From assembly GCF_000004075.3 (NCBI RefSeq), contig NC_026661.2, positions 21,914,307 to 21,978,306 of the forward strand: a stretch of DNA of 64,000 bases, written 5' to 3'. The translations under genes were made by a program, and so were the position numbers. Shown here piece by piece: positions 38,221-49,858 of the stretch. Within the stretch, counting starts at the first letter, position 1; each line of letters begins with the position of its first letter. The notes below the pieces were generated by a model that saw only the letters and a program-made list of their open reading frames with translations, ran no database searches and was not told the origin of the DNA. The stretch comes from Cucumis sativus (taxonomy: Eukaryota; Streptophyta; Magnoliopsida; Cucurbitales; Cucurbitaceae).

Positions 38221-41200
38221 TTAATTGATACGAGCTTTCTTCATGCTCCAAGCAGTGAGCTTTGTAATGGTGACACTCTCTGTTCCATTGTTGAAAGCAT
38301 AGAGACCAACATTGTCTCCAATGGCCAACGTTGGATAAACTCTTGCTGTTATGCAACCTTTCCCCTTTAATCCAAAGCTTTCAACAACTGAGTGATCAAT
38401 CTGTAAACGTTTCACAAATTTTCATGTGCAATTAGTTCACAAATATGATCAAATAGAAACATAAATGGTTCGAGTTTAGTTGCATTTGTTCCTTTGTTAT
38501 TTCTTCGTTTAAACAACAATTTCTTTTTTATAAAAAGGACGGTGCATTATATTGGTAACAACAAAAGCTAACAATTGTAATATGATTAAACCGAACTAAA
38601 TTTCTTTTTCACCTTGTTTAACTACTACAAGTTCTTTTTTAGTTAAAATATCATTAGTTCCTCCACTTTAGAGTTTGTTCAATTTTAGTTCAGGATCTCT
38701 TGTGCTAAAAAACAAATCGATATCAGTTAAACTAAACTCTTGTCGACAATATATTCATAGATTATATACGTAGACATAAACTATCTATATTCCAAATAGT
38801 TCACGTGCGGTGAAAATAAAATTATGAATACGAGGTGTTGCATGTTATACACACAAGTGTATGCAATTTTTAAATTGATTATTAAATGGTGTACTAAGAA
38901 TAATTCATGTGTAAAATCACTTTTTCAACCAACTTCTTTGTCCTAAAGCCAAACCCCATTTAAGCTTTTTTTTTTTTTTGAACAAATTGATTCCATAAAT
39001 TCAGCTTGATTATATAATATCAAAACTCAGTAGAGAACAAAAGAAAACAAACTTAATACAACCAAATAAATAATAATTCATAAGAATCTCACCAAACTTC
39101 TCAGCGAAAGATCTTCACTATCGACATCTACATCCAAGAACGCTCCATATGTTGTCTTGTCATTAGTCGGGTTTAACGAAGATCTATCCACACAAAAAAA
39201 AGGTTCTTAAAGTAACATAAATTATTCAATTAAACTATCACAATATTTCATTGTTACAATAATGTTGTTTCAATCCCTTAAATAAATGGTCATACCTGCT
39301 TTGGTCGCTACACATAAGGGCAACGTATTTGCTTTGTTTTTTGAATATGGTAAAGGAGACAGAAGTGTACTCTTTGAAGTCATTTGAAGCCAAAACTAGA
39401 AGTCCAAATGGACCAACTCCACCCTTTGTAGTTGCTGCTCTTCCCTTTTGACTACAAAGCACTTGTGGGTTTTCCCAATATTGAGGTTTCAAAATTTGAG
39501 CTTTCTTCAAGTTTTTCACTTTAAATGAAACCTCAACATCTGCCTGTAGTAATTATAATGAAAGAATTAAAAAACAACTAAACTTCAACTGTTTGTGTTT
39601 AATTCAAACGGACTCTTAATTTTTACCTGCGACGGTGTTACACCTTTTACTTCAATCGTAGATCCTTTCTTCAATACTTTGTTTGTCAATGTAACTTTGT
39701 TCTTTCTAAGCTTTTGTATCTCCTCAATTGGCCATTGAATTAATTGCTTCCCAGAAGCATCCAACCAAATTGTTCTTGGAATTCCCTTCAAATAAATCAA
39801 TAAATAAATAGTTTTCATCAAATCCATATGTGACCCTACAAATATATAATAATAACAATATAAAATTTTCATTCTTAACTTTAATTCTTGACATTTTAAA
39901 ATAACTATTTTGGTCTAGAGTTTATGGCTTATTCCAATTTTGATTCTTCTCTGGTCTTCAATACTTTACTATTATGTTCTTAAATCCTTATCTTTTTTTT
40001 TTTAATATGGATAATGTGATTTTGATTAAGAAAATTAAGAGTCTATTTTTGTAAACCTTTTAAAGACAATTTTTTTTAAAAAAATAATGGATTCTACTAA
40101 AGTACTTTGTAATATATTTATAAACAAGTTAACTAATAAACATTAGAGGAAACATAAACTATTATTAACTAGTTAATTAATTTGACATAACATGTTTACA
40201 TTTCATAAAACAAAACTTGATTTTTGTATGAAGTTTAAAGATTTTGTTAAGGGTTCTATTTTATACAATTTTTTATATATAAATGTCATTTTTTTAATGA
40301 CTGAAAATATAAATTTATATAATTTTTTTACTCAGTTTACTTAAAACATAAAACCCTTGAGAAACTGAAGTAAAATAAAAACAAAATAGAATTCAAATCC
40401 ATCACTTTTCATGTCGGTAGGTTTCAAGACTTTTCTTTTCAACATCAACATATATACATATATATATATAATATAGAAATATTCTTTTTTAATGGTGAAA
40501 AAGTGAAAATGGGATTGGATCATTGACTTGGAGATTTGAAAAATTACCTGGATGCCAGACCATCCTTTCTTGATATCATCTTCAACACTTGATGATTCAT
40601 TCACCCAACCCCACAAAACTCTCCTCTTCTTTTGTCCGTCATAGAAAGTTTTTGAAGCATAATATTTCCCATAATCATATCTCAATCCACTGTAACCTTC
40701 TATTGATCCTTTGTTTGGTACGTAAATATCTTTTTCCACATCATATGTTCCGATCGTATATACGTCGTGCCTTGTATCATCCAAACTCACCTTCAATACA
40801 TGCTTCACGTTCTTTCCATTCACGGTCGTGTCAACCCCTCTTCGACCGGTCTTTGCTACCGGGTAGAAATCTGGACATTCCCACATTCCCGACCCATCAG
40901 CATAATGAAGCGGATGGTCAACCTATATATATCAAAGACCAAAACGGTGTTACAAGTTGAATATATATAGAAAACTCAAAACAATACTTGAGTGCATTCT
41001 AGGTTGCATCTATTTCATCCACACATAATATTATATATTAGAAAGTATAACTTTACTCGAGCTTTAACTCAAGAAAAGTTTAAAAGTCGTAAGTAAAAAT
41101 AGAGATAGGTAGATACTACTTTAAATTTAGTGGTAGTTTAACATAACCTGATCCCACTTGATGAAATCTTTACTTTGGAACATGAGGGCGAGTCCACGAG

Positions 41201-42106
41201 TGTGAACTTTGTTTCCAACAATGACTCGCCACTCCCCGTTGGGACCGAGCCAGGCGGTGGTGGGGTCTCGGAAGGAGCTGGCATTAATTTGGTTTTGTGG
41301 GGTGGGGGCCATGAGAGGGTTTTTTGGGGATTTGACCCATTCTCTTAGATATGGGTCAGAGAGGTTCTTGGGGACAGCCAAGTTTTGAACTTGTTGGTTT
41401 TTAGGGTTAATTCCTGTGTACAAAATCGCCGGTTTCTCCCCGGGGAGGATGGTGGCGGATCCTGACCAGCAGCCGTTGATATCAGACGGCTGAGATGGGA
41501 AGATGGCGTGATCATGGGGTTCCCAATTGATCAGGTCCGTTGATGTGGAGTGAGCCCACACAATGTTGCCCCACACTGCTCCTTTTGGGTTGTATTGGTA
41601 AAACAGATGATAAATTCCTTTGTATATCATTGGACCTGAAATATCCAACATTTTGGTATTGAAAAAAACCCCAAGAACCAAATTTGTAATAATCTTAGTA
41701 TTTATTTATGTTGAATAATTGAACAAATGTAGCAAAAAATTTAGAAAAGAAAACAGAGGAGGTGGAACTAACCATTTGGATCTGAGAATGATTTCGAGTG
41801 AATTTCATTATCAAAGCACATGTAAAAGAGAAAAGTTAGTGGAGAGAAAAAACCCAGAAGCAAAAAGCAAAAATTGAAAGAAATGAAGAAGAAGAAAGTG
41901 AGAGAAGAAGAAAAAAAACCATTGATCCAATTCTTGGGAGGTTGAAAATGGTAGGAAGTTCTATAAGGTTGTCGATGATGATAATGATAAGGAAGAGAGG
42001 TAGAAGTTTGAGGTTTGTGAACATGGTGAGAAGCTTGAAGTTGAAAAACTCCATGGCCAAACAAGAAACAGAGGAAAGAGATGAAACAGAGAGAGATGGA
42101 AGCCAT
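38221..42106 (-). CDS. Cell-wall acid invertase (beta-fructofuranosidase, GH32), copy 1
   Basis: Secreted apoplastic enzyme splitting sucrose to glucose and fructose. Eight exons (minus): 42106-41920, 41781-41773, 41635-41148, 40922-40548, 39785-39627, 39543-39296, 39183-39093, 38400-38221; in phase, 578 aa. Residues 1-26 form a hydrophobic signal peptide. The catalytic nucleophile motif NDPNG (62-66) is built across three exons, DPN coming from the 9-nt exon 2. Other GH32 motifs: [14 protein letters not shown], and WECPDF; proline here (not valine) indicates the cell-wall type with acidic optimum. The beta-sandwich domain ends WSMKKARIN. Introns 4 (762 bp) and 7 (692 bp) are much longer than in copy 2. 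Active acid/base Glu lies in WECPDF. A TATA box is at 42151-42157. Confidence 0.96.
41773..41781 (-). other. 9-nt mini-exon encoding DPN (invertase copy 1)
   Basis: Reading minus, ctcag|atccaaatg|gttag. The nine bases complete codons from the adjacent exons to give D-P-N of the catalytic motif. Plant acid invertases share this mini-exon. Confidence 0.95.
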
Positions 42107-46523: not shown

Positions 46524-49500
46524 TCAATTGATATGAGCTTTCTTCATGCTCCAAGCAGTGAGTTTTGTAATGGTGACACTGTCTGTTCCATTGTTGAAAG
46601 CATAGAGACTAACATTGTCTCCAATGGCTAATGTGGGATAAACTCTTGCTGTTATGCAACCCTTTCCTTTAATTCCAAAGCTTTCTACTATTGAGTGATC
46701 GATCTGTAATTGTTTCACAATTGTTGATCATATAAGTTTGACGGTCTTATTTTTAAGCTTCAAACAATGTTAAGATTGGACCTTAAACTTATAGCAATTA
46801 TAGAAATGCTTATATGAAGGCGTATAATTTAAACTACGACCATTACCGAATATATTTCTCTTAATGGATATATGTGGATGAAGATGATGCATAAATTAAT
46901 TAACGAAAATAGAATAATCTCACCAAGCTTCTTAGTGAAATATTTTCACGAGTTGGATCCACGTCTAAGAATGCTCCATATGTCGTCTTGTCATTATTCG
47001 AGTGAAGAGAAGACCTAAAATACATTTAGTAAAAAGAGTTTAAAAGTGAATAAATATATGGTTTAGCATTAATTACTTATTTTTATTATCCTATCTTATC
47101 TCATGTCTCTATATATTTGTATCATTCAACTCGTCAAAATAGTTGAGCTCAACTCAAATCTCTCATTTGTACTAATAGTATATGGATCGTACCTGCTTTG
47201 GTCACTACACATGAGAACAACATATTTGTGTGGTTTTTTGAATACTGTAAAGAAGACAGAAGTGTACTCTTTGAGGTCATTTGAAGCCAAAACTAAAAGC
47301 CCAAATGGACCAACTGATCCACCTTCTGTAGTTGACGATGTTCCCTTTTGGCTACAAAGCAACTGTGGGTCTTTCCATTCAGGTTTCAATATTTCAGCTT
47401 TCTTCAAATTTTCCACTTTGAATGAAATCTCCACATCTGCCTGTAATTATATCTATATATCAACAAAAAAACAAAACCAAAGATCCCTAAATCAAACAAC
47501 CCCTTGGTTATGCCATTTTTGACATATCTGTCTTCTAGTGCTTTAGAAATGTTCAAATCACCCTCATTGAACCTAGAAAGTTTTAGGTTGTACGTTTATT
47601 TAATTAACAATACAATAATTTAAGTGTTATATATTATGTTAAACAAAAATTTGGATACGATCTAGGCTTAGTTGTGTGTATTATACAGGAAAAACTTATT
47701 CAAAGCCTAGTCCGAAAGATTAAATTTTGATTGAACACACTTAATACTATGTTAAAGCTCTAACTCAAAATCTAAAACTCGTTGATTATGGTGAAACTTT
47801 TGAAAAAACAAAAAATTATTATACCTGTGCCGCTGTTACACCTTTCACTTCAATGGTTGATCCTTTCTTCAAAACTTCATTTGTCAATTTAACTTTGTTG
47901 TTTCGAAGCTTTTGAATTTCTACAATTGGCCATTGAATGAGTTGTTTTCCAGATGCATCTAGCCAAATAGCCCTTGGAATTGCCTACAAAAATCGATCGT
48001 AACCAAATAATAAGGAAAGAATGAAATTACATATAGAGTATAGCCAATCGTTCATAAGTTTAATTTTCAATAGAGCATATAGCCAATATTTGGACTGACA
48101 ATATTTTTTACAAAACAATTATCAAACGGGATCTTAAGAAATGAATCAAAATTACCTGGACACCGGACCAACCCTTCTTGATATCATCATCGACACTTGA
48201 AGATTCATTGACCCAACCCCACAAAACCCTTCTCTTCTTCTGGCTGTCAAAGAATGTTTTTGAAGCATAATACTTCCCATAATCATATCTTAACCCATTG
48301 TAACCTTCTATTGATCCTTTATTTGGAATGTAAATGTCTTTTTTCCAATTATATGTTCCAACCGTATAAACGTCGTGCTTGGTATCATCCAAGCTCACCT
48401 TCAGTATGTGCTTCACGTGCGATCCAGACACTTTCATCTCCACACCAGTTCGACCGGTTTTTGCCACAGGGAAGAAATCTGGACACTCCCACATTCCCAT
48501 GTCATCCTTGTAACGTAGAGGGTGGTCAACCTATAAAAAGAACCTAAATTACTTTTAAATATACCTTAATCGCAAAAATGATATGTTTTGATATCTCAAT
48601 ACATATATATTGGTATAGTTTAACGCAACCTGATTCCACCTGACGAAATCTTTACTTCGGTACATGATAGCGAGTCCACGGGCATCAATTTTGCTCCCAA
48701 TGATGACTCGCCACTCCCCGTCGCGACCCAGCCAGGCGGTGGTGGGGTCCCGGAAGGAGCTGACATTGATGTGGTTTTGTGGGGTGGGGGCCATGAGAGG
48801 GTTTTTTGGGGATTTGACCCATTCTCTTAGATATGGGTCAGAGAGGTTCTTGGGGACAGCCAAGTTTTGAACTTGTTGGTTTTTAGGGTTAATTCCTGTG
48901 TACAAAATCGCCGGTTTCTCCCCGGGGAGGATGGTGGCGGATCCCGACCAGCAGCCGTTGATATCAGACGGCTGAGATGGGAAGATGGCGTGATCATGGG
49001 GTTCCCAATTGATCAGGTCCGTTGATGTGGAGTGAGCCCACACAATGTTCCCCCACACTGCTCCTTTTGGATTGTATTGGTAAAAGAAATGATAAATTCC
49101 TTTGTATATCATTGGACCTGTAATGTTCCAAAATTAGATATACAACAATAATGATATATTTGGAATTAGACTATAACTTTGGTTTCCAAATTGTAAATAC
49201 TCTCAATAAATTTTTATTTTAATACTTTGTTTATATTAGTTGATCTCAACAAATGGTTGCTTGAGCTGTTATTGATATCTTCCGCCAAATTAAATTAGTA
49301 ACCAAATAAAACGAGTATATATAACTCAATTGATATCAAATACGTATACAAAATTTTTCAAACAAGAGGTTTTATCCCCATCTCACAAGTTATCAAAATA
49401 AAAATAGAATGCACCAAATATTGGTAAAAAGAAAAAAGATTGAGTTTGTAAGGTAGAGAAATGTAGAAAAAGTTAGAAAAAAAAAAGAAGAACAAAATTA

Positions 49501-49858
49501 AGGAGGAATTATTAGCAACTTACCATTTGGATCTGCATTTTTGCAGTGAATTCCATAGCCATATCACATGTCAAAGAAAAACGCTTCAAACTTCAATGAG
49601 AAAGAAGAAAACCCAAAAGAAAAAGAAGAAAAGAAATTGACACAAAGTACCATTAATCCAATTCTTGGGAGGTTGAAAATGATAGGAAGTTCTGTAAGGT
49701 TGTTGTTGGTGCTGATGAAGAACAAAGTGAGATGTTCTATGAGAAGCTCTATAAACATGGTGAAGAGCTTGGAGTTGCAAAAATTCATGGCCAAATAAGA
49801 GAAAGATCAAGAGAAAGATATTATTCAAGAAGCAAAGAGAGGATGAATAAGAAGCCAT
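46524..49858 (-). CDS. Cell-wall acid invertase (beta-fructofuranosidase, GH32), copy 2
   Basis: Tandem paralogue of the gene at 38221-42106, same strand. Exons (minus): 49858-49651, 49532-49524, 49117-48630, 48530-48156, 47983-47825, 47440-47193, 47014-46924, 46703-46524; in phase, 585 aa. Exons 2-8 have exactly the same lengths as in copy 1; only exon 1 is longer (208 versus 187 nt). It has a signal peptide ([17 protein letters not shown]), NDPNG with a 9-nt mini-exon, FRDPTTAW, and WECPDF, so it is also predicted to be an active cell-wall enzyme. Exon 4 differs from copy 1 at many residues, yet 346 nt of exon 3 are nearly identical, consistent with gene conversion. The C-terminus ends WSMKKAHIN. 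Introns 2 and 5 are longer than in copy 1. Confidence 0.96.
49524..49532 (-). other. 9-nt mini-exon encoding DPN (invertase copy 2)
   Basis: Reading minus, tgcag|atccaaatg|gtaag. It is the same nine bases as in copy 1, between introns of 118 and 406 bp. Confidence 0.95.

Follow-up and report, generated by a model that had tools for sequence, protein, structure and literature searches.

Why should two neighbouring invertase genes of cucumber, well diverged over most of their length, be almost identical within part of a single exon? The original prediction, which noted the matching stretch, attributed it to probable recent gene conversion. Our analysis bears this out: the tract very probably reflects one recent, nonreciprocal interlocus gene conversion within an old tandem pair of cell-wall invertase genes, a reading supported by near-zero dS within the tract and by the lack of paralogue-wide constraint. 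The case is built on a single genome.

A tandem pair of predicted cell-wall invertase genes

Gene A, a GH32 invertase of the cell-wall type, occupies 38221..42106 on the minus strand of the window, that is, the whole 64,000-nt stretch of DNA that was analysed; its tandem paralogue, gene B, occupies 46524..49858 on the same strand. The two genes lie in the same orientation, 7.5 kb apart, approximately 0.5 Mb from the end of the 22.47 Mb contig C7, where the window covers 21.91-21.98 Mb. Both gene models were inferred from sequence, through pairwise conservation between A and B together with GT-AG splice sites. Each gene is predicted to contain 8 exons, encoding 578 amino acids in gene A and 585 in gene B, and exons 2-7 are of equal length in the two.

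The GH32 N-terminal domain (PF00251) was found above the cut-off, exon by exon, in both A and B. Both also contain the motifs NDPNG, RDP and WECPD. In gene A, NDPNG falls at residues 62-66, completed by a 9-nt mini-exon (41773-41781), and RDP at residues 188-190. The proline form of the third motif, WECPD, is one that we take to mark invertases of the cell-wall type. The closest solved relative of gene A is AtcwINV1, Arabidopsis cell-wall invertase 1 (PDB 2ac1; E 1.6e-254 over residues 45-577). A and B are probably plant cell-wall invertases of family GH32, predicted to hydrolyse sucrose in the apoplast.

A scan of the assembly (226.6 Mb, 88 contigs) with PF00251 found at least seven GH32 genes: A, B, one each on contigs C2, C3 and C4, and two on C5. 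Five of these carry WECPD; the two with other forms, WECVDF and WECLDF, look vacuolar, on what we assume the motif to mean. An additional intron (40923-41147 in A, 48531-48629 in B) is common to A and B, in phase 0 between a Gln and a Val codon. It splits a large exon that the other five GH32 genes found in this genome have intact, and reflects either a gain that predates the A/B duplication or a loss elsewhere. In exon 4 of gene A (40548-40922), the motif SLDDTRHD has an Arg where gene B and AtcwINV1 have a Lys (SLDDTKHD), a residue presumably important for substrate specificity.

Extent of the near-identical tract

When positions 41290-41638 are set against 48772-49120, at an offset of 7482, exactly five differences are present (41463, 41568, 41589, 41604 and 41606), as had been claimed. 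The adjoining downstream part of exon 3 in gene A (41148..41289, minus strand), which contains RDP and appears unconverted, differs at 23 of 142 sites, again as claimed. Similarly, the reported unbroken 173-nt run is real: it spans 41290-41462 and is the longest identical coding run between A and B, followed by one of 104 nt (41464-41567) and then by one of 42 nt. The best low-divergence segment in the whole aligned coding sequence is 41290-41567, with 1 difference in 278 nt. We take this segment as the core converted tract of gene A (minus strand, residues 89-181, including WSGSA); its counterpart in gene B is 48772..49049 on the same strand.

The original prediction gave the tract as 349 nt and placed it just after NDPNG. 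The near-identity holds, but the length is shorter, about 280-300 nt by codon analysis. The placement was loose: the tract does lie past NDPNG, but at residues 89-181, between NDPNG and RDP. The last three positions of the longer interval, 41636-41638, are only the CAG splice acceptor. In addition, four of the five differences sit in the 68 exon bases that adjoin the upstream intron (41568..41635, minus strand), and the upstream edge therefore probably lies inside exon 3, in or near this piece.

A two-rate model applied within exon 3 placed the downstream edge at 41290 (95% interval 41290-41311) and the upstream edge at 41588 (95% interval 41552-41627). Homologous but diverged sequence flanks the near-identity at both ends: the downstream edge is sharp, and the contrast is weaker upstream (4 of 68 sites, versus 23 of 142). 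Because the divergence of the 68-nt piece (5.9%) lies between that of the core and the background of 16.4%, its status is uncertain and the upstream edge is soft; an older or longer exchange may have reached towards the intron. Conversion through a cDNA, which would place the edges at exon borders, has no support: the downstream edge lies within the exon and the upstream 95% interval ends before the border at 41635.

Silent divergence along the gene pair

If the tract arose by recent conversion, then dS near zero should be confined to it, as the original prediction stated, and this is what we found. We estimated dS and dN between A and B by Nei-Gojobori counting with our own script. In the core (41290-41567, 92 codons), dS was 0.016 and dN 0, with 1 silent change in 62.3 synonymous sites; in the coding sequence beyond 41290-41638, dS was 0.52 and dN 0.12, with 111 silent changes in 296 sites. 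Exon 3 as a whole gave a dS of 0.12 and a dN of 0.04, its 22-codon upstream piece (41568-41635) 0.29 and 0.02, and its 48-codon downstream part 0.31 and 0.15. For the other exons, dS and dN were, respectively, 0.40 and 0.27 (exon 1), 0.73 and 0.11 (exon 4), 0.83 and 0.08 (exon 5), 0.40 and 0.10 (exon 6), 0.93 and 0.18 (exon 7), and 0.34 and 0.04 (exon 8).

A contrast of this size is not readily produced by chance. With 1731 aligned coding nucleotides and 240 differences, the observed segment score and the longest run were each reached in 0 of 20,000 codon permutations. Likewise, none of 20,000 permutations of silent differences only (452 same-residue codons, 96 of them differing) reached the observed score. 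These permutations cover the choice of a place within the gene, not the choice of the gene in the original prediction. When the comparison was limited to codons that specify the same residue, 1 of 87 differed in the core versus 95 of 365 elsewhere (Fisher p 3e-9); the contrast remained when exons 3-4 were taken alone (1 of 87 versus 39 of 144, p 4e-8).

The background itself is uneven: dS among the other coding pieces ranges from 0.31 to 0.93 (heterogeneity p 0.047), and none comes near 0.016. Exons 6 (39296-39543) and 8 (38221-38400) show about half the A-B silent divergence of exons 4, 5 and 7. The difference between the two sets has a p of 0.006, for a grouping picked after the values were known, and the signal that these exons mark older conversion events is for that reason suggestive only. 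If it were genuine, then the exon 3 tract would be the latest of several exon-by-exon conversions, with those in exons 6 and 8 older, and repeated exchange would hold parts of the two invertases alike despite the divergence of their introns and remaining exons. We regard such a history as rather unlikely.

The silent divergence also gives rough ages. At an assumed rate of 7e-9 per site per year, the single change in 62.3 sites dates the tract to approximately 1.1 million years (0.03-6.4), and the background dS corresponds to approximately 37 million years. At 1.5e-8, the values, equally rough, are 0.5 million years (0.01-3.0) and 17 million years.

Copy number, introns and the quality of the assembly

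In the 226.6 Mb assembly, near-identical sequence turned up in two places, and the other two matches listed were at 69%. No third near-identical copy, donor or fragment was found by this search, whose counts are lower bounds. A search for related plant sequence in viral and prokaryote collections gave 2 and 29 pattern matches, respectively, none of them a relative.

The introns had been described as not aligning, and this is true of introns 2-7: their local alignment scores do not exceed the best of 60 shuffles, which intron 2 equals. Intron 1 keeps some similarity, with a local score of 34 versus a shuffled maximum of 23. This pattern, of introns 2-7 that align no better than shuffled sequence and a first intron that is partly similar, is consistent with a duplication of some age. 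Over exon 3, the BLAST match runs on by 17 nt into intron 2 and by 14 nt into intron 3.

Could the tract have been made during assembly or polishing, with the reads of one copy used to build both? Our data consist of assembled sequence, and in excerpts of PMC10487868 the CsaV3 gene set has one seemingly fitting identifier, which could point to a gap in the annotation or to a locus difficult to resolve. However, the assembly resolves the neighbouring exon parts and the introns of the two copies, which are diverged, and five differences persist over 41290-41638. Moreover, overwriting of this kind would need short reads to map across approximately 16% divergence, which is unlikely. We therefore consider an artefact very improbable.

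Conversion, crossing-over and constraint

We favour gene conversion because the tract is short, is diverged on both sides, lies in tandem copies of the same orientation, and has no further donor that we could find in the assembly. The sequence of events would be as follows. An old tandem duplication of a cell-wall invertase gene would have given rise to A and B. Much later, one copy, probably after a DNA break within its exon 3, would have been repaired with the other copy as template; approximately 280-300 bp would thereby have been copied, with no exchange of the flanks, as in interlocus, nonreciprocal gene conversion. Repair of a break, a single event and a recent date are all inferred. Neither GC3 nor codon identity to the other paralogues was informative as to which gene was the donor: the tract is now the same in A and B, and the outgroups are almost saturated.

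The tract could in principle have entered both genes by unequal crossing-over or by partial re-duplication, and tandem copies of the same orientation do in general permit unequal crossing-over. A single crossover, however, shifts everything on one side of its breakpoint, whereas here the tract is flanked by divergence on both sides; in addition, no third copy or fragment turned up in the assembly. This route is thus highly unlikely. A double crossover would leave the same trace as gene conversion and is indistinguishable from it.

A final possibility is that the two tracts have been kept alike, with no exchange at all, by strong purifying selection that acts either on the protein or, through an overlapping RNA signal for instance, on silent sites. 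The encoded stretch is indeed well conserved and aligns closely to Arabidopsis cell-wall invertase 1, but protein constraint does not hold silent sites. Over exons 3-4, we compared the seven GH32 genes found in all 21 pairings. For the 92 codons of the tract, pS was 0.016 for A-B versus 0.697-0.928 in all 20 other pairs, and pS was higher inside the tract than outside it in 14 of these 20 and lower in 6. The original prediction had named equal silent-site conservation of the tract between paralogues in other species as an observation that would count against conversion; within this one genome, all 20 other pairs lack such conservation, and family-wide silent-site constraint is accordingly rejected. 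The 20 pairs are not independent, the tract being common to A and B, and all approach silent saturation; what the control rules out is therefore strong silent constraint across the family, as distinct from constraint specific to A and B. Selection of the latter kind escapes this control, and we judge selection as a whole to be a most improbable cause of the match.

Discussion

The A/B tract is a new and unusually clean case of an ordinary, known process. Excerpts of PMC6771003 describe intergenic gene conversion among Arabidopsis RPP8 copies, with simulations that use a default tract length of 100 bp. As at A/B, the exchange there is nonreciprocal and between duplicates on one chromosome. The RPP8 work as excerpted, however, concerns recurrent exchange in immune-receptor genes, seen with population data, whereas we infer one event, from one genome, in an enzyme of sugar metabolism. 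Moreover, exchange in those excerpts is scarce within the tandem pair and commoner with a copy at a distance of 2 Mb, whereas at A/B the exchange is within the tandem pair. Similarly, the excerpted pear study (PMC5816897) inferred conversion between tandem and other plant duplicates from silent divergence; in contrast to our partial tract within one genome, it scored whole genes with an outgroup species. Conversion between invertase genes is not described in the titles and abstract openings of the papers found by a search of the open-licence literature, which says little of all that is in print, and no paper on tandem cell-wall invertases of melon was found in the open-licence literature.

The cucumber invertases listed in excerpts of PMC10487868 comprise four cell-wall, six cytoplasmic and two vacuolar members. 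Of the chromosome 7 identifiers given there, three are called cytoplasmic; the fourth, CsaV3_7G034730, is given as collinear with CsaV3_4G035700. CsaV3_7G034730 is presumably of the cell-wall type, and probably corresponds to gene A or gene B. Because we found five WECPD genes versus the four cell-wall members in those excerpts, that gene set seems to lack A or B, or to contain one of them in merged form. In heat-stressed male flowers, CsaV3_7G034730 is among three invertases with changed expression, according to excerpts of PMC8570340.

The tract leaves views of gene conversion and of invertase function unchanged. It has practical consequences: phylogenies or Ks-based ages drawn from exon 3 would be misled by it, and short RNA-seq reads and primers that fall inside it cannot separate A from B. 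For cucumber, it provides a roughly datable exchange in a gene family that is studied for the supply of sugar to fruit and pollen.
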